DNA of 64,000 nucleotides from Bacteroidales bacterium (GTDB lineage: Bacteria; Bacteroidota; Bacteroidia; Bacteroidales; Tenuifilaceae): assembly GCA_013141385.1 (NCBI GenBank), contig JABFRB010000019.1, positions 124,001-188,000 of the forward strand, read 5' to 3'. The position numbers and the translations under genes were made by a program. Within the stretch, counting starts at the first letter, position 1. Every line of letters starts with the position of its first letter. The notes under the pieces are model-generated. The model did no database searches and was not told the origin of the DNA. It saw only the letters and a list, made by a program, of their open reading frames with translations. This document shows, piece after piece, positions 1 to 7,049 of the stretch.

Positions 1-617
1 ACACCAATAGCTATCATTAACTTATACTTGCCATACATCAAATCGACAGGAATAAGTTTTGCTCGTTCTTTCAATGTGAAATTGACTTTCCGCATGGAGG
101 GAGTTGCTTTGTACCCATTTTCAATAAATGGTTTGATGTCGCAGGCAAGAACGGGTCCATAAATAACGCTAAACCCAGATTTTTCTTTCACTTCATGAGC
201 AGCAACTCCGGGAGCACCTAATTGAGGCACAATAATTTTTCGGTGTTTTATTATTTGTTCAAGTGATGTGTTTTTAATACTTTTAATAATATTTTCTGTG
301 CTAAATGTTTTCTTTCCTGCAGCACACCAAACGTTTATGCCTTTTGTATCAAGTACAAGTACCCAAGCATTCATGCCATGCAGAGCTCGACGAAGATGAT
401 CAAAGCTTAATTTATAATTAGCAGAAACAAAAATGTCCGAATCAGCATTGGGCGTTCCAATAGCATATAATCCTTGCTTCACGCTATAGTTCATCCTTCC
501 TGTAGACCAACGCACCTTAATTGTGCTCCATAAATCTGAGCTACTCCAGAGGGTTGAAATCTGGTTTACTGTTCCAACAACAGTATCAACGGTTCCTATG
601 ATATACTTTTTATTCAT
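1..617 (-). CDS. hgcA: HgcA, corrinoid protein of mercury methylation (3' part outside window)
   Basis: HgcA is a corrinoid protein that transfers a methyl group to Hg(II), working with the ferredoxin HgcB. I translated the minus strand from the ATG at 617 and found about 205 residues with no stop before the window edge. Residues 94-105 read INVWCAAGKKTF, which holds the cap-helix motif NVWCAAGK; Cys98 would be the cobalt-coordinating cysteine. The flanking sequence (HRKIIVPQLGAPGVAAHEV, then YGPV and KATPSMRKV) also fits the corrinoid-binding domain of HgcA. The C-terminal membrane domain and any hgcB lie beyond the left edge. The gene starts 5 bp after the stop of the CcdA-like gene, so it is the last visible gene of an operon beginning at arsR. 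The motif identification is from memory of the family; methylation activity is inferred. Confidence 0.93.
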   Translation of the reverse strand, partial: MNKKYIIGTVDTVVGTVNQISTLWSSSDLWSTIKVRWSTGRMNYSVKQGLYAIGTPNADSDIFVSANYKLSFDHLRRALHGMNAWVLVLDTKGINVWCAAGKKTFSTENIIKSIKNTSLEQIIKHRKIIVPQLGAPGVAAHEVKEKSGFSVIYGPVLACDIKPFIENGYKATPSMRKVNFTLKERAKLIPVDLMYGKYKLMIAIG

Positions 618-622
618 GATGA

Positions 623-1324
623 TTAAATTGTAATCAGCAAATAAAATCCTACAACAATCATAATTATTCCACCTGTATATTTCAACGCAATTCCGAGTTT
701 TGTGAATGTTCTAGATGTTTTACCGAACCCAAGTCCAATTCCTATCATTATTGTAGTAATAGTTATACAATAGCCAAGTGCATAAGCAAACATCAATAGT
801 ATTCCCCAAATAAGGCTGCCTTTTACAAAAGAAACTGCAAGTACAATGGGGAAAACTGGATTGCAAAATGAACTTGAGGCTAGTGTCAACCCTCCAATGG
901 TTAACCCAAAAATCACCGAAGAAAAAATTCCGCTTTTATGATTGGTAGGATTAAGTGAAATGTTAGGTATTTTAAACGAAAGTAAATCAAGAGTAAAAAG
1001 TCCGAAAAATATAACTATCAAACCAGCAATTATTTTCCAATATTTACCCAAAGATGCGCTTATCAACTCGCTTGCATAACCGATGATAGCTCCAACTACC
1101 ATCATTGATATTATCATTCCAGTAAAAAAAAGCAAACTGTTTAATACTATTACTTTCGCTTTTCCCGTTGACCCGATGGAACCTGAATATCCTGCAACAA
1201 TTGCGATTATAGAAAAATTACAAGCGCAAGTAAAAATGCTGAACAACCCGAATAAGAAAATCGCTATCAGCACAGTGTAATCTGCCTGATTAGAACTTAA
1301 AGTATGCCGTATCCACTCTTCCAT
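623..1324 (-). CDS. CcdA/DsbD-like transmembrane electron-transfer protein
   Basis: This 233-residue, very hydrophobic protein has about six predicted membrane segments. Two cysteine sites fit the CcdA/DsbD transmembrane family: FTCACN in the first segment and SSSFCNP near the middle, corresponding to the paired cysteines that carry reducing equivalents across the membrane. Family members move electrons from cytoplasmic thioredoxin to periplasmic thiol proteins. The start codon overlaps the stop of the preceding gene by one base (TAATG), and hgcA starts 5 bp after its stop, so it is translationally embedded in the operon. It may reduce the cysteines of neighbouring exported proteins; that partnership is inferred. 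The first site is CAC rather than the usual single Cys-Pro arrangement. Confidence 0.8.
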   Translation of the reverse strand: MEEWIRHTLSSNQADYTVLIAIFLFGLFSIFTCACNFSIIAIVAGYSGSIGSTGKAKVIVLNSLLFFTGMIISMMVVGAIIGYASELISASLGKYWKIIAGLIVIFFGLFTLDLLSFKIPNISLNPTNHKSGIFSSVIFGLTIGGLTLASSSFCNPVFPIVLAVSFVKGSLIWGILLMFAYALGYCITITTIMIGIGLGFGKTSRTFTKLGIALKYTGGIIMIVVGFYLLITI

Positions 1325-1608
1325 TACTTCTTGGTTTGCTTACAACATGATTTAGTTTTTTCGGGGTTAGTTATTTTGATATCCCCTTTAATACCCGTTG
1401 TATCACAGCAACTTTGCTCAATTTTAGTATTTTTCTGAACTTCTTGGGCATTGTTTTTTCCAACAAGTTTAACACCTACTATAGTTACTGCAGAAAGGAC
1501 AATTGCAGCAAATAAAATCTTCTTCCAAAGTTTTCCTTTAGGAGGTTCACAACAGTTGCTATTGCTATTGCAATTGCATTTAGCTTTTTCATTCATTTGA
1601 ATTTCCAT
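1324..1608 (-). CDS. Small Cys-rich single-pass membrane protein
   Basis: This protein of 94 residues (90 if the ATG four codons downstream is used) matches no family I recognise. The N-terminus carries CNCNSNSNCC, followed by one hydrophobic segment at about residues 30-50. The other side carries two vicinal pairs, SCCD and SCCKQ. Seven or more cysteines, including three adjacent pairs, suggest binding of soft metals such as As(III) or Hg(II) or a thiol-exchange role. It sits between the ArsC-like gene and the CcdA-like gene in the hgcA operon, so a carrier or relay function is plausible but unproven. The composition is unusual enough that it is unlikely to be a chance ORF, and its stop overlaps the next start. 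Confidence 0.75.
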   Translation of the reverse strand: MEIQMNEKAKCNCNSNSNCCEPPKGKLWKKILFAAIVLSAVTIVGVKLVGKNNAQEVQKNTKIEQSCCDTTGIKGDIKITNPEKTKSCCKQTKK

Positions 1609-1650
1609 TATTTTATGGTTTATTTGAATTAAGGGTTGATAATTTAATCG

Positions 1651-2136
1651 CTACAGTTCAGTTATAGAAAAACGATGTTGTTTGGTTTTACTGTTAGCAG
1701 CACAGCCACATCCATGTTTTCCTAGTATTTGATTGTTATAAAATGCTTTAAACCCTTCACTTATCTCATCACGAACTCTACGAAAAACCACTAATTTTTC
1801 TTCGTCAGTTCCTGTTGCCTCGGCTGGGTCATCATATCCCAAGTGCCAGCGTTGCTTTACCTTTCCAATAAATGCAGGGCAGGTTTCGTTTGCACCACCG
1901 CAAACAGTAATCACATAATCCCATTCTTCGTTCAAAAATTTGTTAACATGTTTTGGATTTTGATGGCTAATATCTATTCCTATTTCGCTCATAACCTGAA
2001 TTGCAAATCGATTGATTCTATAAGCAGGTTCTGTTCCAGCAGAAAAAACCTTTAAACTCTTATCGTACGATTGTAAGAAGGCTTCTGCCATTTGGCTTCG
2101 GCAGCTATTGCCTGTGCAAAGAATTAATATTTTCAT
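1651..2136 (-). CDS. arsC: Thioredoxin-coupled arsenate reductase-like protein, copy 1
   Basis: This 161-residue protein of the low-molecular-weight phosphatase/ArsC family would reduce arsenate to arsenite. The P-loop CTGNSCRSQ gives nucleophile Cys7 and Arg13. The relay cysteines are Cys79 and Cys86 in VCGGANETC, and the general-acid aspartate is in YDDP (102-103). All three cysteines of the thioredoxin-dependent ArsC mechanism are therefore present. An extra C-terminal tail of about 20 residues carries CGC, which ordinary ArsC lacks and the second copy at 6522-6944 does not have. It lies in the arsR-hgcA operon, and no arsenite exporter is visible in the window. Arsenate as the true substrate is inferred from family membership. 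Confidence 0.88.
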   Translation of the reverse strand: MKILILCTGNSCRSQMAEAFLQSYDKSLKVFSAGTEPAYRINRFAIQVMSEIGIDISHQNPKHVNKFLNEEWDYVITVCGGANETCPAFIGKVKQRWHLGYDDPAEATGTDEEKLVVFRRVRDEISEGFKAFYNNQILGKHGCGCAANSKTKQHRFSITEL

Positions 2137-2185
2137 ACTATTTCATTTTAATAACTTGAAAATAAATTATAGAATAACTAATTTT

Positions 2186-2854
2186 TCAAATTACGACTTT
2201 TCCATTATTAAGTTTTATCCTATTACTACCATATTCTGCAGCCATAGGGCTATGTGTAACCATAATCACAGTGGTATTTTGTTTTTGGTTTATTTCTCTT
2301 AAAATACCAAGTATTTCTTCGGATAAATTAGGGTCTAGGTTGCCAGTAGGTTCATCGGCAAGCAATAGATCTGGGCTATTTGCCAATGCACGGACAATAG
2401 CAACACGTTGTTGTTGACCTGCTGATAGCTCCTTCGGGTAATGAGTGGTGCGATCATCCAAACCAACCCATTCTAGTAACTCTAACGCCCGTTTTCTATT
2501 GGCTGTTTTATCGCTGTTTTTTACATTTAATGCAATCATTATGTTTTCCAATGCAGTAAGGTATGGAACAAGAGCAAAACTCTGCATTATAAATCCCACG
2601 TGGTTACTACGGAAATTGGCAAGTTCTTCTTCATTTTGTAGGTCTATTTTCTTAAAGTTGTAAAACATTTCACCTGAAGTTGGATGCAGTAAACCACCTA
2701 GAATTAACAGAAGGGTTGTTTTGCCCGAACCAGAAGCTCCTGTAATGGTTACAAATGAACCTTTGGCTATGCCAAGTGAAAGATTGTCTACCGCATTGAT
2801 AGCCCCTTCGTGGCGTTGGTATGTTTTTGTTAGATTTTTTAACTCTATAAACAT
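2186..2854 (-). CDS. ABC transporter ATP-binding protein, LolD/MacB type
   Basis: This 222-residue ATPase belongs to the LolD/MacB/FtsE group. It has Walker A GASGSGKTTL (about residue 40), the signature LSAGQQQRVA, Walker B LLLADEPTGNLD and the switch histidine in MVTHS, so it should be active. It begins 2 bp after the stop of the FtsX-like permease, and the pair would form a mechanotransmission-type or exporter complex in the inner membrane. The group moves lipoproteins, peptides or small molecules, or drives periplasmic events without transport. Its presence in the arsR-hgcA operon points to handling of a thiol or metal compound, but the sequence does not name the substrate. Confidence 0.92.
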   Translation of the reverse strand: MFIELKNLTKTYQRHEGAINAVDNLSLGIAKGSFVTITGASGSGKTTLLLILGGLLHPTSGEMFYNFKKIDLQNEEELANFRSNHVGFIMQSFALVPYLTALENIMIALNVKNSDKTANRKRALELLEWVGLDDRTTHYPKELSAGQQQRVAIVRALANSPDLLLADEPTGNLDPNLSEEILGILREINQKQNTTVIMVTHSPMAAEYGSNRIKLNNGKVVI

Positions 2855-2856
2855 AA

Positions 2857-4074
2857 TTATTCCTCCTGCATGTTTGAGAATGGTTCGATTTTCCCTGCCA
2901 TATAAGCAGGAATTACTGATCCAAGTATTGAAATGGTGATTGAGATGATAATCGAAATAAAAAATAGCATGTACAATGGGCTTACTTCAATTCCTGCAAA
3001 TTGGGGCCCTAGCCAAATAGCCGCTAATGTTCCAACAATATATCCAGTAATTCCACCTACTATACCCATTATAACCGCTTTAAGAATGAGTATGAAATAC
3101 ACATGCTTTTTATGGTAACCAATCATACGAAGAATACCTATTTCTTTTCTACGTTCGTTTACATTTGCCCAAATGTAATTACCAATAGATATGCTACCTA
3201 CGAATAGTATGATGATGAGAAATATCAGTGATATTTTATTCATCATGCGGTTAGTTTCAATTTGGGTTGAAACAATTTGCCCAATAGTGGTTATGCGTGT
3301 ATCAGGTAAAATATTACGCATTTTGCTCAACAAGCCGTCTGAAATTGCACTACAACAACCCATAATTTCAATTGCGCTTATTTGCTCTCCTGTACCTAAA
3401 AGGGCTTGAACAGTATGTAGGTTTGCAAATACCCTATCATCATCAACAGTTCCTGTTTCGGGTAAAACCTTTACAATGGCAAAGGTTCTGTTTTCGATAG
3501 TAAGCGTACCATTTTCTTTTACACGGAGCCTTTGAGCAACAGCAGACCCAATAAAACAGTCGGATTCTGCAAGGGTATCAATTCCTTTACGCTGTAACTT
3601 CTCGTCTAAGTATTTTGCGGGTTGTGCATTGGGTTTAGGAGCACAACTTGCAGCTAACGGAGTTCCCAATAATCCACCTTTTTGCCAAATTGGCTTTGAG
3701 GCAATTTCGCTTTTAGGGAGGATACCCGTAAGCACAATACTTTCGTTGCCAATTTTTACCCTACGGGTTAATTTTGGCGACATATTATCAACACCAGACA
3801 GGGTAGAGGTTACAATTCTTTCAATATAACTTTCGGGAAAAGTAGGTGCATCAATATCGGCAGAGTAGTAATTGTCTACACTTGCTGCTTGAGGCAACAC
3901 GAGAATGTTTGCGCCTAAGTTATCAAGATTCACGGCAACCGCTTTTTCCGATATTACTGAAATTGAGCGGATGCCAACAATTACTCCGATACCAAGTGTT
4001 ATGGCGAGTAACCCCGAAATCAGTTGAGATTTGCGATGCCAAAGCTCTTTTAACGTTAAATCTATTAATGTCAT
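2857..4074 (-). CDS. FtsX/MacB-family ABC transporter permease
   Basis: This 405-residue permease has the FtsX/MacB layout: a first membrane helix at about residues 18-38, a large MacB-type periplasmic core of about 230 residues, and three C-terminal helices (about 280-300, 325-350 and 365-390). The core contains cysteines not usual for this group, including an SCAPKP segment, ESDCF and the vicinal pair in MGCCSA. It is directly followed by its ATPase gene. Unlike MacB, its ATPase is separate and no dedicated HlyD/TolC partner lies beside it. The extracytoplasmic cysteines fit with the Cys-rich neighbours and suggest that the complex senses or moves thiol-bound metal; this is inference. Confidence 0.88.
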   Translation of the reverse strand: MTLIDLTLKELWHRKSQLISGLLAITLGIGVIVGIRSISVISEKAVAVNLDNLGANILVLPQAASVDNYYSADIDAPTFPESYIERIVTSTLSGVDNMSPKLTRRVKIGNESIVLTGILPKSEIASKPIWQKGGLLGTPLAASCAPKPNAQPAKYLDEKLQRKGIDTLAESDCFIGSAVAQRLRVKENGTLTIENRTFAIVKVLPETGTVDDDRVFANLHTVQALLGTGEQISAIEIMGCCSAISDGLLSKMRNILPDTRITTIGQIVSTQIETNRMMNKISLIFLIIILFVGSISIGNYIWANVNERRKEIGILRMIGYHKKHVYFILILKAVIMGIVGGITGYIVGTLAAIWLGPQFAGIEVSPLYMLFFISIIISITISILGSVIPAYMAGKIEPFSNMQEE

Positions 4075-4102
4075 GATTCTATTGCTTTTTTAACATGTTT
4101 AT

Positions 4103-4936
4103 TTAACAGCCTTTAGAACCACAACTGGGTCCACACGTTTTTTTTACAGGAGTTTTTGCTGCTGTAACTAATTTTTCAACTTCGGGAATAGTTGTTGATG
4201 TTTCTACCACTTGCCCAAGTTTATTGAATACTATAGTAATTGATGCATTCGTTGATTTATCTATACTTAGCTGATTCATAAAACCAGTTTCGTCTGGGTC
4301 GTTCATATCTACTTCAACAAAAACGGCTTCGTCATTTAGCACTACAACTGCTACTTGGGCATTTTTTATTACCTCATTCCTATCAGCAAATGATTTTTTT
4401 GTAAATACAACTATTGATGGTTTACTTAAACCAATAGCCGTATACACCTCCTCCATTTTTGGAGTAGGGACAAGGGATGCAATTTTATCAGCAGTAGCTT
4501 GGCTGAGAATAAATCCCCCTGACAGAAGTCCTTTCGTGGATAATACTAGAATAATTGGAAGTGGTGCTCCTGAAAGTCTCCAAGCATCAACCAATTGTGC
4601 ATTTGCAGCATCATCTCTATCCAGTTGAGCAATTACTGCGTTTTTATAGATGGTAACTGCACCTTTTGCTATTTCGATTGCTTTTTCGGTATCCATTGAG
4701 CCTGTTCCCATTACGACAACAAATACTGCTTTCCCATCTCTCTTTGCCCTATCAAGTTCGGATTGTAATTTTGTATTAACAGGTTGCACAGTCTGCTGAC
4801 CTATTTCAGTTTTTTGCTGAAGGTTTTTATTATCATTAACTTTTTTATCATCAGCATTTGAATTGGTACATGCACTAACTGTTAAAGCATTTGCTATAAG
4901 TAGGCTTAATAGTTGCCATTTCTTTAGAATTCTCAT
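4103..4936 (-). CDS. Exported lipoprotein with thioredoxin-like domains and Cys-rich tail
   Basis: This 277-residue protein begins with a lipoprotein signal peptide ending TVSAC (lipid-attachment Cys23). Residues of about 55-160 and 165-265 look like two thioredoxin-type alpha/beta folds, with strands such as AVFVVVMG and SIVVFTK, but neither has a CXXC active site. Instead the protein ends with TCGPSCGSKGC, three cysteines in the last 11 residues. A redox role would therefore depend on the tail rather than on a classical active site; alternatively the tail binds metal. It is the second gene of the arsR-hgcA operon. I do not recognise a named family; the thioredoxin-like assignment is from pattern only. 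Confidence 0.72.
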   Translation of the reverse strand: MRILKKWQLLSLLIANALTVSACTNSNADDKKVNDNKNLQQKTEIGQQTVQPVNTKLQSELDRAKRDGKAVFVVVMGTGSMDTEKAIEIAKGAVTIYKNAVIAQLDRDDAANAQLVDAWRLSGAPLPIILVLSTKGLLSGGFILSQATADKIASLVPTPKMEEVYTAIGLSKPSIVVFTKKSFADRNEVIKNAQVAVVVLNDEAVFVEVDMNDPDETGFMNQLSIDKSTNASITIVFNKLGQVVETSTTIPEVEKLVTAAKTPVKKTCGPSCGSKGC

Positions 4937-4963
4937 ATTATATCAATTTATAGGTTAAATTTT

Positions 4964-5314
4964 CTATTTTGATTCTGAATGACAATCAACATTACAATCA
5001 ATGTTAATCAACTTTATGGGTTCAAAAAAACTATCGAACATTTGCAGGTATTTCTCAATTGAAGAGCCACAAAGGCAATAGTTAACCTTTAACCCATCAA
5101 TCTCACCATAGATCAGCCCTAAATCTCTTAATTCTTTAAGGTGCTGCGAAACGGTGGTTCGACTCAGAGGTATAAAATCGGAAATATCACCCGAAATACA
5201 GGTTTTTGTTTCTGCTAGATATTGCAATATTGCCAATCTAGCAGGATGGGATATAACTCTAGCAAATTTCGCAAGGTCCTGCAATGATTCATCAAATTTT
5301 TTCGCTTTATTCAT
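4964..5314 (-). CDS. arsR: ArsR-family metal-responsive repressor
   Basis: This 116-residue winged-helix regulator has the ArsR core: FARVISHPARLAILQYL, then the recognition helix LSRTTVSQHLKEL. Cysteines at 39, 80, 82, 107 and 111 (the last two as CNVDC) are candidate metal or metalloid ligands; they do not form the classical ELCVCDL site, so the ligand set is unusual. I chose the ATG at 5314, because the upstream in-frame ATG at 5341 lies inside the predicted -7 promoter box. It is first in the operon that ends in hgcA, so it probably represses its own operon and is released by As(III), Sb(III) or Hg(II). ArsR-type regulators next to hgcA are known from other mercury methylators. Confidence 0.9.
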   Translation of the reverse strand: MNKAKKFDESLQDLAKFARVISHPARLAILQYLAETKTCISGDISDFIPLSRTTVSQHLKELRDLGLIYGEIDGLKVNYCLCGSSIEKYLQMFDSFFEPIKLINIDCNVDCHSESK

Positions 5315-5329
5315 TTCTATTATTTCTAG

Positions 5330-5347
5330 TGTCGCAAACATACGACA
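5330..5347 (-). promoter_or_regulatory. Predicted arsR-hgcA operon promoter -7 box and operator
   Basis: The minus strand reads TATGTTTG at 5342-5335, a match to the Bacteroidota -7 consensus TAnnTTTG. It sits in the centre of an inverted repeat TGTCG-N8-CGACA (5330-5347). A repressor bound here would block the promoter. No clear -33 TTTG is visible upstream. The site begins 16 bp before the chosen arsR start at 5314. Confidence 0.55.
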
Positions 5348-5510
5348 TTGTTTTTAATAAAAAAATTATTGAATATTAATTTTATGATATTTTTTTGAGA
5401 AAAGTAATGAATAGTGATATTTTATTCAATCTCAATACTTTGACAAACACTATAAATAGATTTTTTCCAACAACACGATTTTAACGATACCAATGAGTAA
5501 TTAAATTATT

Positions 5511-5641
5511 TCTTAATTCTACTTTGACAGATTAGAAAAACACATGAAAAATCAACCTAATTTACCCCTGTCCCTAAAGGATAAGGGGTGAAAAAGCAGA
5601 AAAAGCAAGCACAAACGTAATCTGTCAAAGTAGAATTAAGA
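5511..5641. repeat. 131-bp palindromic element with 24-bp perfect terminal inverted repeats
   Basis: The arms at 5511-5534 and 5618-5641 are perfectly complementary over 24 bp (inner motif CTTTGACAGATTA). The 83 bp between them hold a smaller hairpin of ACCCCT and AGGGGT. No ORF is present. The right arm overlaps the last six bases of the DUF190 gene. It looks like a MITE-type element or a large terminator between the arsR promoter and the fluC/DUF190 unit. Confidence 0.8.
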
Positions 5642-5995
5642 TTGTTTTTTGACTCCCTTTTTGTGAAGAATAATATTTGCCTTTTCTACAGTAATCATAC
5701 ATCCCTTATTTAGGTCATCAAATATTGGTAGGATGACCTCAATAAATTTCTCGATTTTTTCCGACTCATCTAATATTTCCACAACAAGTGGAACTTTTTC
5801 GGTTAACTCCCAATTGGTTGGTGAATATATTGCACTGCTTGAGCCGTAGCCCATAATCCCTTTAAGAACAGTTGCTCCAGCAATTCCTTGCTGTTTTGCA
5901 TTAAAAACTATCACCTCGTAAAGGGGTTGATGCTTGAATTTATCGGTTGAACTGATGAATATTCGTAATAGTTTGGCCTCACCTTTTATTTCCAT
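5636..5995 (-). CDS. DUF190 family PII-like protein
   Basis: This 119-residue protein matches the DUF190 family, small trimeric proteins with the PII fold, from the pattern LLRIFISSTDKF, then AGATVLKGIMGYG and VEKANIILH near the end. PII-like proteins bind nucleotides and gate transporters. It lies 2 bp after fluC on the same strand, a pairing often seen with CrcB/FluC, which suggests it tunes fluoride export. No ligand residue can be confirmed from sequence alone. Its last bases form part of the inverted repeat ending at 5641, so the element may have inserted at the gene's 3' end and supplied the stop region. Confidence 0.88.
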   Translation of the reverse strand: MEIKGEAKLLRIFISSTDKFKHQPLYEVIVFNAKQQGIAGATVLKGIMGYGSSSAIYSPTNWELTEKVPLVVEILDESEKIEKFIEVILPIFDDLNKGCMITVEKANIILHKKGVKKQS

Positions 5996-5997
5996 GA

Positions 5998-6375
5998 CTA
6001 TAGAATTTTAGTGATAAGATTACCGAAATATGTAGCCATAAGCCCGAGAAATACACTTAGGCTAGTGTAGAGAGCAAAATAAAAAAAATCTCCATCCCTT
6101 AATAGAGCAATGTTCTCGTTGGCAAAAGTTGAAAATGTGGTAAACCCTCCACAAAAACCCACGGTTAGGAACATTCGCCAATCAGAATTCATTATATCCC
6201 CTTTCTCCGAAAGGCCAAAGAATAATCCAATTAGGAAACATCCGACAATATTGACAAGAAAAGTCCCGTAGGGAAATGCCGAAAGGATATGATTTTGAAT
6301 ATAACGAGATGCTAAAAATCTAGAAACCGTTCCTATAAAGCCTCCTGTACCGATTATAAGAATTAGTCGAAACAT
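5998..6375 (-). CDS. fluC: Fluoride exporter FluC (CrcB)
   Basis: This 125-residue membrane protein has four helices and the CrcB/FluC signatures: GGFIGTVSRF at the N-terminus, PYGTFLVNIVGCFLIG in the second helix and GFCGGFTTFSTFANE in the third, including the phenylalanines and the GxTTFST break that line the fluoride pores. It forms a dual-topology dimer that exports F-. A fluoride riboswitch precedes it (6416-6468), which confirms the role independently. It is followed 2 bp later by the DUF190 gene. The length is normal for the family. Confidence 0.96.
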   Translation of the reverse strand: MFRLILIIGTGGFIGTVSRFLASRYIQNHILSAFPYGTFLVNIVGCFLIGLFFGLSEKGDIMNSDWRMFLTVGFCGGFTTFSTFANENIALLRDGDFFYFALYTSLSVFLGLMATYFGNLITKIL

Positions 6376-6379
6376 ATAT

Positions 6380-6386
6380 GCTGATA
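6380..6386 (-). promoter_or_regulatory. Putative expression platform of the fluC riboswitch
   Basis: The mRNA reads UAUCAGC a few bases before the fluC AUG (6375). It is exactly complementary to GCUGAUA (6432-6426) inside the aptamer. Pairing of the two would sequester the ribosome-binding region when fluoride is absent, so control is probably at translation initiation. This is inferred from complementarity only. Confidence 0.5.
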
Positions 6387-6415
6387 TTTTACTTTAAAGA
6401 TACAAAATCTAATGT

Positions 6416-6468
6416 AAGTAGGAGTTATCAGCTTTTAAAGACGGGCAAAGGCGAACTCCATCACCTAT
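6416..6468 (-). ncRNA. Fluoride riboswitch (crcB motif)
   Basis: On the minus strand the leader of fluC reads GGTGATGGAGTTCGCC (6466-6451), a short variable hairpin, then GCTGATAACTCCTAC (6432-6418). These are the two conserved halves of the crcB-motif aptamer. GAGTT can pair with AACTC to form the pseudoknot. It lies about 40 nt before the fluC start and would switch fluC-DUF190 on when fluoride is bound. Confidence 0.93.
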
Positions 6469-6521
6469 TCAAAAATAAAAAATCTCTTGAGTAAACTATG
6501 TTTTGAGTAAAAATCGTCACC

Positions 6522-6944
6522 TTAACTCTCTTTCAAATTCTCCTGGTAAAACTTAAACAATCGCTGCTTTATTTTATCCCTAGTATATCGGAATTCACTT
6601 AGTATTCGATCCTCAGAACCTGTAACCAAGGAAGGATCGTCAAAACCAATGTGAATACGATGTTTTACTTTACCATAAAAAATGGGACAAAATTCATTAG
6701 CACTGCCACAAACGGTAATTACATAGTCCCAATCCTCTCCAAGATAAACACTTACACTTTTAGGTTTATTTGAACTGATATCTATCCCAATTTCTGTCAT
6801 AACTTTTATGGCATACTCATTAACACTTGCTGCGGGTCTTGTTCCTGCGGAATGAACTTCGAGAGAGGGGTCAAATGATTGCAAAAGACCTTGAGTCATC
6901 TGGCTTCGACAACTATTGCCTGTACATAAAACTAAAATCTTCAT
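6522..6944 (-). CDS. arsC: Thioredoxin-coupled arsenate reductase-like protein, copy 2
   Basis: This 140-residue ArsC/LMW phosphatase homologue has the P-loop CTGNSCRSQ, the relay cysteines in VCGSANEFC and the aspartates in FDDP. I used the ATG at 6944 rather than an upstream GTG (6959), because the family begins MKILVLCTGNSC. It lacks the C-terminal CGC tail of the copy at 1651-2136 and differs at many positions, so it is an old paralogue rather than a recent duplicate. It is separated from the arsR operon by fluC and the riboswitch and has its own spacing, so it may be regulated independently. Confidence 0.88.
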   Translation of the reverse strand: MKILVLCTGNSCRSQMTQGLLQSFDPSLEVHSAGTRPAASVNEYAIKVMTEIGIDISSNKPKSVSVYLGEDWDYVITVCGSANEFCPIFYGKVKHRIHIGFDDPSLVTGSEDRILSEFRYTRDKIKQRLFKFYQENLKES

Positions 6945-7049
6945 GATATTTTGAATCACTTAACATTTAATAAAAAAAGATAACAAATATATTTGAAAAT
7001 CATATAACATAAAAGTCAATGAAAAAATAAATTACTCACTTACAATGCA

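Follow-up and report, generated by a model that had tools for sequence, protein, structure and literature searches.

The routes by which Hg(II) gets to the mercury-methylation proteins HgcA and HgcB (HgcAB) and by which methylmercury exits the cell are, to our knowledge, still to be established. In the relevant passage of a structural study, HgcB is said to receive Hg(II) "from an unknown source" (PMC7305189). The closest described loci are those in which arsenic (ars) genes adjoin hgcAB, as stated in the Fig. 6 legend of PMC7438021, in passages on Prolixibacteraceae in PMC10504345, and in passages of PMC10349881, the last of which also cites, second-hand, control by ArsR in P. mercurii ND132. 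Among mercury transporters, the cysteine (Cys) pair in transmembrane segment 1 (TM1) of MerE is described as critical for transport of both Hg(II) and CH3Hg(I), and that of MerT as involved in Hg(II) transport (PMC5715351, in the passages that deal with them).

A locus of the first kind lies at the left end of the window, by which we mean the whole stretch of 64,000 nucleotides analyzed here (contig JABFRB010000019.1, positions 124,001 to 188,000, of a Bacteroidales bacterium). There, an arsenic operon carries hgcA and hgcB preceded by two genes, one encoding a small Cys-rich protein (CC) and the other a membrane protein of the CcdA superfamily (CcdA-like). CC - CcdA-like - hgcA - hgcB is a cassette tied to mercury methylation, and it occurs across several phyla. 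The window genome is referred to as G000 and the hgcA locus on the extended contig as L002; other G and L numbers denote the genomes and loci compared.

Recurrence of the CC/CcdA-like pair beside hgcA

The cassette consists of the following genes.

1324..1608, minus strand: CC protein, with an N-terminal CxC..CC cluster, one hydrophobic segment, and C-terminal CC pairs; partner of the CcdA-like protein
623..1324, minus strand: CcdA-superfamily membrane protein with a CxC Cys pair in TM1 and without Pro-Cys; hgcA-linked family
1..617, minus strand: hgcA, codons 1-205 of 341, running on left of the window; NF040863, 287.9 bits for this part
L002:11291-11590, 3' of hgcA: hgcB, 99 amino acids (aa); NCBIfam, 129.2 bits (cut-off, 99)

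When 295 genomes of the order were searched for the CcdA-like protein at E <= 1e-10, it was found in 15, and 13 of these have hgcA beside it, the CcdA-like gene lying just 5' of hgcA; among the 280 genomes without the protein, only 7 have hgcA (Fisher p = 5e-16). Surveys that started from the family detected it in 4/218 genomes of Phycisphaerae, 3/39 of Calditrichota, 7/132 of Zixibacteria, and 2/277 of the phylum Bacteroidota, one of the last two being the window genome. Across all five surveys, 22 of the 30 family genomes have hgcA 3' of the CcdA-like gene on the same strand (18/26 after removal of the four seed genomes, G000, G318, G321, and G322). Other genes lie between the two in G265 and G286, which are among the 22, and the contig of G072 starts inside the CcdA-like gene. 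The hgcA-free family genomes have either arsM (6/30; G119, G178, G430, G511, G515, and G961) or acr3 only (2/30; G556 and G571). All six methyltransferases checked, five from hgcA-free loci and one from L217, score above the arsenite-methyltransferase cut-off, as does the ArsC-ArsM fusion of G178, and an extra CcdA-like copy in G220 (L176) has neither hgcA nor arsM nearby.

ArsC-ArsM fusions were also seen 5' of the pair at L154:1984-3216 (assigned by families) and at L031:7615-8850 and L041:471-1865 (assigned by length and BLAST). Rhodanese-like proteins are encoded near arsR/arsC 5' of CC at L014:8019-8486, L018:7311-7742, and L033:8480-8893, the L018 protein being recognized by a family match under the cut-off and the other two by eye; they are reminiscent of the rhodanese/DsbD fusion TsoB.

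A second set of loci was taken from the hgcA side. From the best 80 of at least 550 matches to the window HgcA, 6 with less than 900 bp upstream were dropped, and 12 of the 74 remaining named loci carry a family member, namely, 7/26 Bacteroidota, 3/3 Phycisphaerales, 1/1 Calditrichaeota, and 1/1 Zixibacteria, with 0/1 for a locus titled Phycisphaerae; phyla are those of the record labels, among which "delta" lumps several groups. In L096, the pair sits downstream of hgcB. With the duplicate hgcA loci L035, L169, and L177 removed, 24 of 99 non-redundant hgcA loci carry a family member. It is conceivable that the CcdA-like gene came to lie next to hgcA by chance in this lineage only, and the family is indeed absent from most hgcA loci, including L016 and L017 of the same genus; however, the association within the order and the recurrence in other phyla make this highly improbable.

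The distance from the CcdA-like stop to the NVWC codon of hgcA is 262-478 bp in 25 of 28 pairs, and the other three (L023, L168, and L173) have intervening genes that are unrelated by eye. Pairwise distances of HgcA and of the CcdA-like protein are correlated (r = 0.73 over the 28 pairs; 0/5000 shuffles as high), for which shared descent alone could suffice. These pair statistics leave out L096, L013 (contig edge), and the duplicates.

Since the hgcA-free members sit with arsM or acr3, the pair could be an ArsG-like arsenical efflux module without a role in mercury handling, next to which hgcAB was inserted for co-regulation by As(III). The surroundings of hgcA fit this idea as well: 18 of the 26 Bacteroidota hgcA loci have acr3, arsC, or arsM on the same strand within 6 kb, as found with Bacteroidota and Phycisphaerae queries on that strand only (opposite-strand acr3-like matches exist in L098 and L100). 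Against it, the pair adjoins hgcA in four phyla, and in five Zixibacteria loci (L219-L223) CC - CcdA-like - hgcA - hgcB occurs and neither acr3 nor arsC nor arsM is found at a distance of up to 3.5 kb. Upstream, BLAST identified an ArsR-type gene in L219, L220, and L221, and inspection by eye identified one in L223 but not in L222. These minimal operons argue for a role of the pair with HgcAB itself. The efflux-module explanation is thereby weakened but still live, and we consider it unlikely.

Properties of the CcdA-like and CC proteins

At an E value of 0.01, the window CcdA-like protein has no match in Pfam or NCBIfam. Raising the threshold to 0.1 adds nothing from NCBIfam and a single Pfam match, MerE over TM1 (14.3 bits; cut-off, 22.8), which is read as convergence rather than homology. 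DsbD_TM (PF02683) is above its cut-off in four of the eight family relatives scanned, not in the window protein, and the family profile matches the PDB structure of CcdA, 5vkv (E = 2.2e-6). By these profile comparisons, the protein is a member of the CcdA superfamily. An earlier note on the window, made by a model without database searches, had labeled it CcdA, and that label is sound only at the level of the superfamily, though the window protein by itself does not match. Profile scores are bimodal: family members start at about 184 bits, except for L013 (135 bits), which is cut by the contig end, and canonical CcdA or ArsG reach about 95 bits at most. A plasmid search with the CcdA-like protein gave no match.

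The family differs from its relatives in the first transmembrane segment (topology and TM numbering are from hydropathy and inspection by eye, which give about six hydrophobic segments). Pro-Cys in TM1, which we take to be the redox motif of CcdA/DsbD carriers, occurs in 0/38 family members versus 14/14 paralogues from the fetched loci. Instead, at least two Cys fall within the TM1 window in 37/38 members; the miss is L218, whose open reading frame (ORF) start was called too late, and in L068 the second Cys is not paired. In the TM4 window, 32/38 members have at least two Cys and 33/38 have CNP. In a tree, a single starred branch holds all 38 family rows and sets them apart from six CcdA/ArsG rows, a split that carries a long-branch warning, and within the family at least 7 switches between hgcA-linked and other contexts are needed. 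This separation and the missing Pro-Cys also speak against an ArsG-like module. Weak matches to the ArsG model NF040495 speak for one: they occur in 7/23 family members (best E, 9e-12). The window protein itself has none, and L018 carries a true ArsG (304.9 bits) in addition to its family member.

ORFs of the CC type, with a single strong hydrophobic segment and four or more Cys, lie immediately 5' of the CcdA-like gene in 37/39 loci. The two misses are L013, at a contig edge, and L218, where a CCTrx-like ORF is nonetheless present. Cys residues flank the hydrophobic segment on both sides in 36/37 CC proteins, most of which have CxC and then CC before the segment. There are 25 short and 12 long forms, and the long ones contain a domain with an invariant Pro in 11/11 aligned, taken for a thioredoxin-like domain; CxxC occurs in the body of 0/12. 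None of the seven CC proteins scanned matches a Pfam family at cut-off. At L029:8554-9291, ArsC and CC are fused in frame.

These features bear on another explanation, that of a thiol-electron relay, in which a CcdA/DsbD-type reductant carrier would keep periplasmic thiols of CC or of the operon's lipoprotein reduced or would supply electrons for HgcAB turnover. The PF02683 and 5vkv matches suit such a carrier, one TM1 Cys is invariant and one TM4 Cys nearly so, and the source of reducing equivalents for HgcAB is given as unknown in the relevant passages of PMC11588087. On the other hand, neither the TM1 Pro-Cys nor a CxxC in the body of the long CC partners is to be found, the window genome holds two further members of the superfamily that do have Pro-Cys, and we infer that an outward flow of electrons would be of no use to the cytosolic HgcB. 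An electron relay is thus quite improbable in our judgment, and the "DsbD-like reductant carrier" of the earlier note is doubtful.

HgcA and HgcB of the operon

The earlier note had called hgcA from the part within the window and pointed to the HgcA membrane domain and hgcB as genes to be looked for farther left. Both were found on the extended contig. The complete HgcA has 341 aa and the membrane domain, scores 408.6 bits against the NCBIfam HgcA model (cut-off, 275), covers model positions 1-324 of 325, and contains the cap-helix Cys motif NVWCAAGK, in which NVWC is invariant in 8/8 aligned proteins. HgcB has two CxxCxxC clusters and a Cys tail with CDC and CC, and it passes the equivalog cut-off. 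A truncated or look-alike hgcA is ruled out by the full length, the score above the cut-off, and the presence of hgcB. Thus, as had been proposed, an operon headed by arsR combines a true hgcAB with genes for soft metals, and the hgcAB products are predicted to methylate Hg(II).

In the HgcA tree, from which two HgcA rows were left out, the window HgcA groups with HgcA from CcdA-less loci, L054, L019, L022, L024, L025, and L179 (support, 100*). Its residues 1-60, in contrast, are 52-65% identical to those of CcdA-linked L167, L014, L018, L023, and L168 and 41-54% identical to five further CcdA-linked HgcA proteins versus 25-35% to the six HgcA proteins with which it groups. For residues 261-341, identity is 40-46% to CcdA-linked HgcA versus 52-68% to those six. 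Identity switches near residue 104, and the observed range was reached in 0/10,000 shuffles, a nominal count because the groups were picked after the tree had been viewed. The pattern fits a mosaic hgcA produced by recombination, in which the 5' end of the cassette would have been joined to an existing hgcAB, and it could possibly reflect constraint varying along HgcA. The N-terminal type is no strict marker of the cassette, since L021 has it (67%) without a CcdA-like gene.

Two further hgcA loci deserve mention. HgcA of Zixibacteria L219-L223 bears N-terminal CC-containing extensions, if the called starts are right. At L180 (G193:C99:3217-3810), in a neighbourhood of arsR, arsC, and acr3, the match to hgcA is broken by in-frame stops, through decay or an assembly error.

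The surrounding arsenic operon

Apart from the cassette, the operon contains the following genes.

4964..5341, minus strand: arsR/smtB-type regulator, 125 aa, first gene of the operon; Pfam HTH_5; NCBIfam NF033788, 55.4 bits, only barely above the cut-off of 55
4103..4936, minus strand: lipoprotein with thioredoxin-like domain(s) (PF13848), without CxxC, with a Cys-rich C-terminal tail; general ars block
2857..4074, minus strand: FtsX/MacB-type ATP-binding cassette (ABC) permease; general ars block; PF02687, 74.5 bits
2186..2854, minus strand: LolD/FtsE-type ABC ATPase; general ars block; PF00005, 110.9 bits
1651..2136, minus strand: ArsC arsenate reductase, thioredoxin type, with an extra CGC tail; PF01451, 74.6 bits (cut-off, 23.2)
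L002:10867-11247, between hgcB and acr3: 23S-IVP four-helix protein, 126 aa
L002:9741-10817, 3' of the IVP-type protein: acr3, 438.1 bits (cut-off, 282.8)

As the earlier note had it, eight minus-strand genes run from arsR to hgcA with short gaps or overlaps; they lie within 1-5341, separated by -1 to 49 bp, and from these gaps the operon is expected to be co-transcribed. The Cys clusters it had pointed out are likewise present, in ArsR (CNVDC), the lipoprotein tail, the permease (MGCCS), the ArsC tail (CGC), and the small protein with three CC pairs. ArsC passes only the Pfam cut-off (131.6 bits against TIGR02691; cut-off, 174.3). The lipoprotein, whose lipobox was assigned by eye, keeps its label with the correction that it is a thioredoxin-like protein without CxxC; its match to PF13848 (cut-off, 27 bits) is weak at 14.5 bits, that of the relative in L048 reaches 34.1 bits, and homologues adjoin the permease in relatives. 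The inverted repeats seen 5' of arsR are only AT-rich and weak. With arsR, arsC, and acr3 all in one operon, this is an ACR3-type ars operon.

The eight genes had been proposed to form a single dedicated module, and here the permease block gave a different result from the pair. At E <= 1e-30, the permease was found in 18 and hgcA in 20 (19 above the family cut-off) of the 295 genomes of the order, and the two occur together in 6 (Fisher p = 5e-4), so that 12 of 18 permease genomes have no hgcA. Among the six, permease and hgcA lie on one contig solely in the window genome, some of the other contigs being short. The 17 other permease loci of the order have acr3 in 16 cases and arsR in the remaining one, a 3.7-kb contig, and the common gene order is arsR - lipoprotein - permease - ATPase - arsC - acr3. 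The block, mostly without hgcA and always near arsR/acr3, is therefore a general part of arsenic operons; arsR, the thioredoxin-like lipoprotein, the FtsX permease, the ATPase, arsC, and acr3 make up an arsenic operon of the usual Bacteroidales kind. In the hgcA loci L016 and L017, from the same genus, arsR, arsC, hgcA, and hgcB are present and the permease block is missing, and the block does recur beside hgcAB in L031, L033, L036, L048, and L053. The expectation that the neighbours would be conserved with hgcA was accordingly borne out for CcdA-like and CC and not for the permease block, and a unit of all eight genes dedicated to hgcA was rejected. A literature search on FtsX in ars operons found no paper on such a link.

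Just upstream of the operon (window 5636-6959) lie genes for a DUF190 protein and a CrcB fluoride channel, together with another arsC, whose product is 58% identical to the ArsC of the operon. DUF190-CrcB is kept at the same place in L016 and L017 and is present as a pair in L049. Relatives of the 23S-IVP-type protein recur in the ars/hgc loci L016, L018, L047, L153, and L171.

Proposed function of the pair

The ArsR-headed arsenic operon carries the cassette between arsC and acr3, and we propose that CC and the CcdA-like protein together act as a thiol relay that passes soft-metal species across the membrane. CC Cys clusters on both faces of the membrane may pass metal to or from the TM1 and TM4 Cys of the CcdA-like protein, in a thiol-exchange chain that would run from the periplasmic Cys of CC through the membrane Cys of the CcdA-like protein and the cytosolic CxC..CC of CC to the HgcB tail. 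The relay could export the methylated product, CH3Hg+ where it sits with HgcAB and methylarsenite where it sits with ArsM; alternatively, it could run the other way and import Hg(II). Export is favoured for two reasons: methylation of soft metals or metalloids is common to ArsM and HgcAB, and ArsG, a relative, carries the name of an efflux permease. We give a probability of about 0.48 to this reading, an arsenic operon with an HgcAB cassette whose CC/CcdA-like pair is a soft-metal thiol relay, most likely one that exports the methylated product.

Several observations weigh against it. The family is found without hgcA in 8/30 genomes, so the pair is not exclusive to HgcAB; in Phycisphaerae, 3/4 family genomes lack hgcA and 4/5 hgcA genomes lack the family, which contradicts strict exclusivity. 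The two loci with acr3 only suit efflux and not methylation. Four of the five surveys relied on profile A2, which was built mostly from hgcA-linked members and so biases the hgcA tally upward. Among the named hgcA loci, 62/74 are without the family, including 25/25 labeled delta/Desulfobacterota, and on the HgcA tree its presence switches at least 16 times. The pair has thus often been gained or lost, and mercury methylation does not require it. The long-branch warning applies to the separation from CcdA and ArsG, and the conserved TM1 and TM4 Cys would also fit thiol redox. Lastly, HgcB tails have on average 3.9 Cys with the pair versus 4.3 without (p = 0.03), the opposite of the expected direction.

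Carried further, the relay reading would mean that in several phyla the pair is the membrane partner so far missing for HgcAB, a (methyl)mercury translocator derived from the CcdA/ArsG superfamily by replacement of Pro-Cys with Cys pairs, exchangeable between HgcAB and ArsM, and controlled by arsenic in Bacteroidota. This wider version is put forward tentatively, as a possibility somewhat short of an even chance. It offers a directly testable two-gene candidate for mercury transfer, one that recurs beside hgcA across phyla and has Cys pairs like those of mercury transporters. Furthermore, hgcAB in an arsenic operon, together with the ars genes near 18/26 Bacteroidota loci, suggests that methylmercury output there may track arsenic rather than mercury.

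Comparison with known systems

Related selenoprotein operons are reportedly described by Haft and Gwadz 2023 and by Haft and Tolstoy 2025, which could bear on the novelty of the pair. In bounded literature searches, which did not include hgcA with CcdA alone, no paper was found to connect hgcA with proteins of the CcdA/DsbD type; none has hgcA together with "cytochrome c biogenesis", and hgcA and DsbD co-occur in a selenoprotein review whose relevant passages do not tie them together. The earlier note had thought the combination undescribed. This holds, within those searches, for hgcA with a CcdA/DsbD-type protein, and not for the link between ars genes and hgcAB, which is in print (PMC7438021 and PMC10504345, in the parts cited above).

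Like the window, the published ars-hgcAB loci have ars genes, of the set arsR, arsC, acr3, and arsM, beside hgcAB, but a CC/CcdA-like pair and an FtsX block are not mentioned in their text passages. The hgcAB genes themselves conform to the known gene pair, HgcA and HgcB both scoring above the equivalog cut-offs and HgcB being Cys-tailed; they differ in that CC and CcdA-like genes lie ahead of hgcA, which looks mosaic, with aa 1 to ~104 close to the CcdA-linked type and the rest close to the L054 type. With CcdA/DsbD (PF02683, 5vkv), the CcdA-like family shares the superfamily, the length, the conserved TM1 Cys, and the near-invariant TM4 Cys, whereas it has a TM1 Cys pair in place of Pro-Cys and a tree branch of its own. 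ArsG, the aromatic arsenical efflux permease (NF040495), belongs to the same superfamily and occurs in arsenic operons with ArsF, but ArsG rows keep SPC, and family member L095 scores 29.5 bits against a 200-bit cut-off. TsoB, the Tso rhodanese/DsbD fusion selenoprotein (NF045694), is the commonest NCBIfam near-match (15/23; best E, 2e-10); the family has no fused rhodanese, however, and scores of 14.3 and 24.4 compare with a cut-off of 805 bits. MerT and MerE resemble the CcdA-like protein in having a Cys pair within TM1, C-C or C-x-C (PMC5715351, relevant passages), yet there is no significant homology, and about six hydrophobic segments, counted by eye, contrast with the two predicted in MerE.

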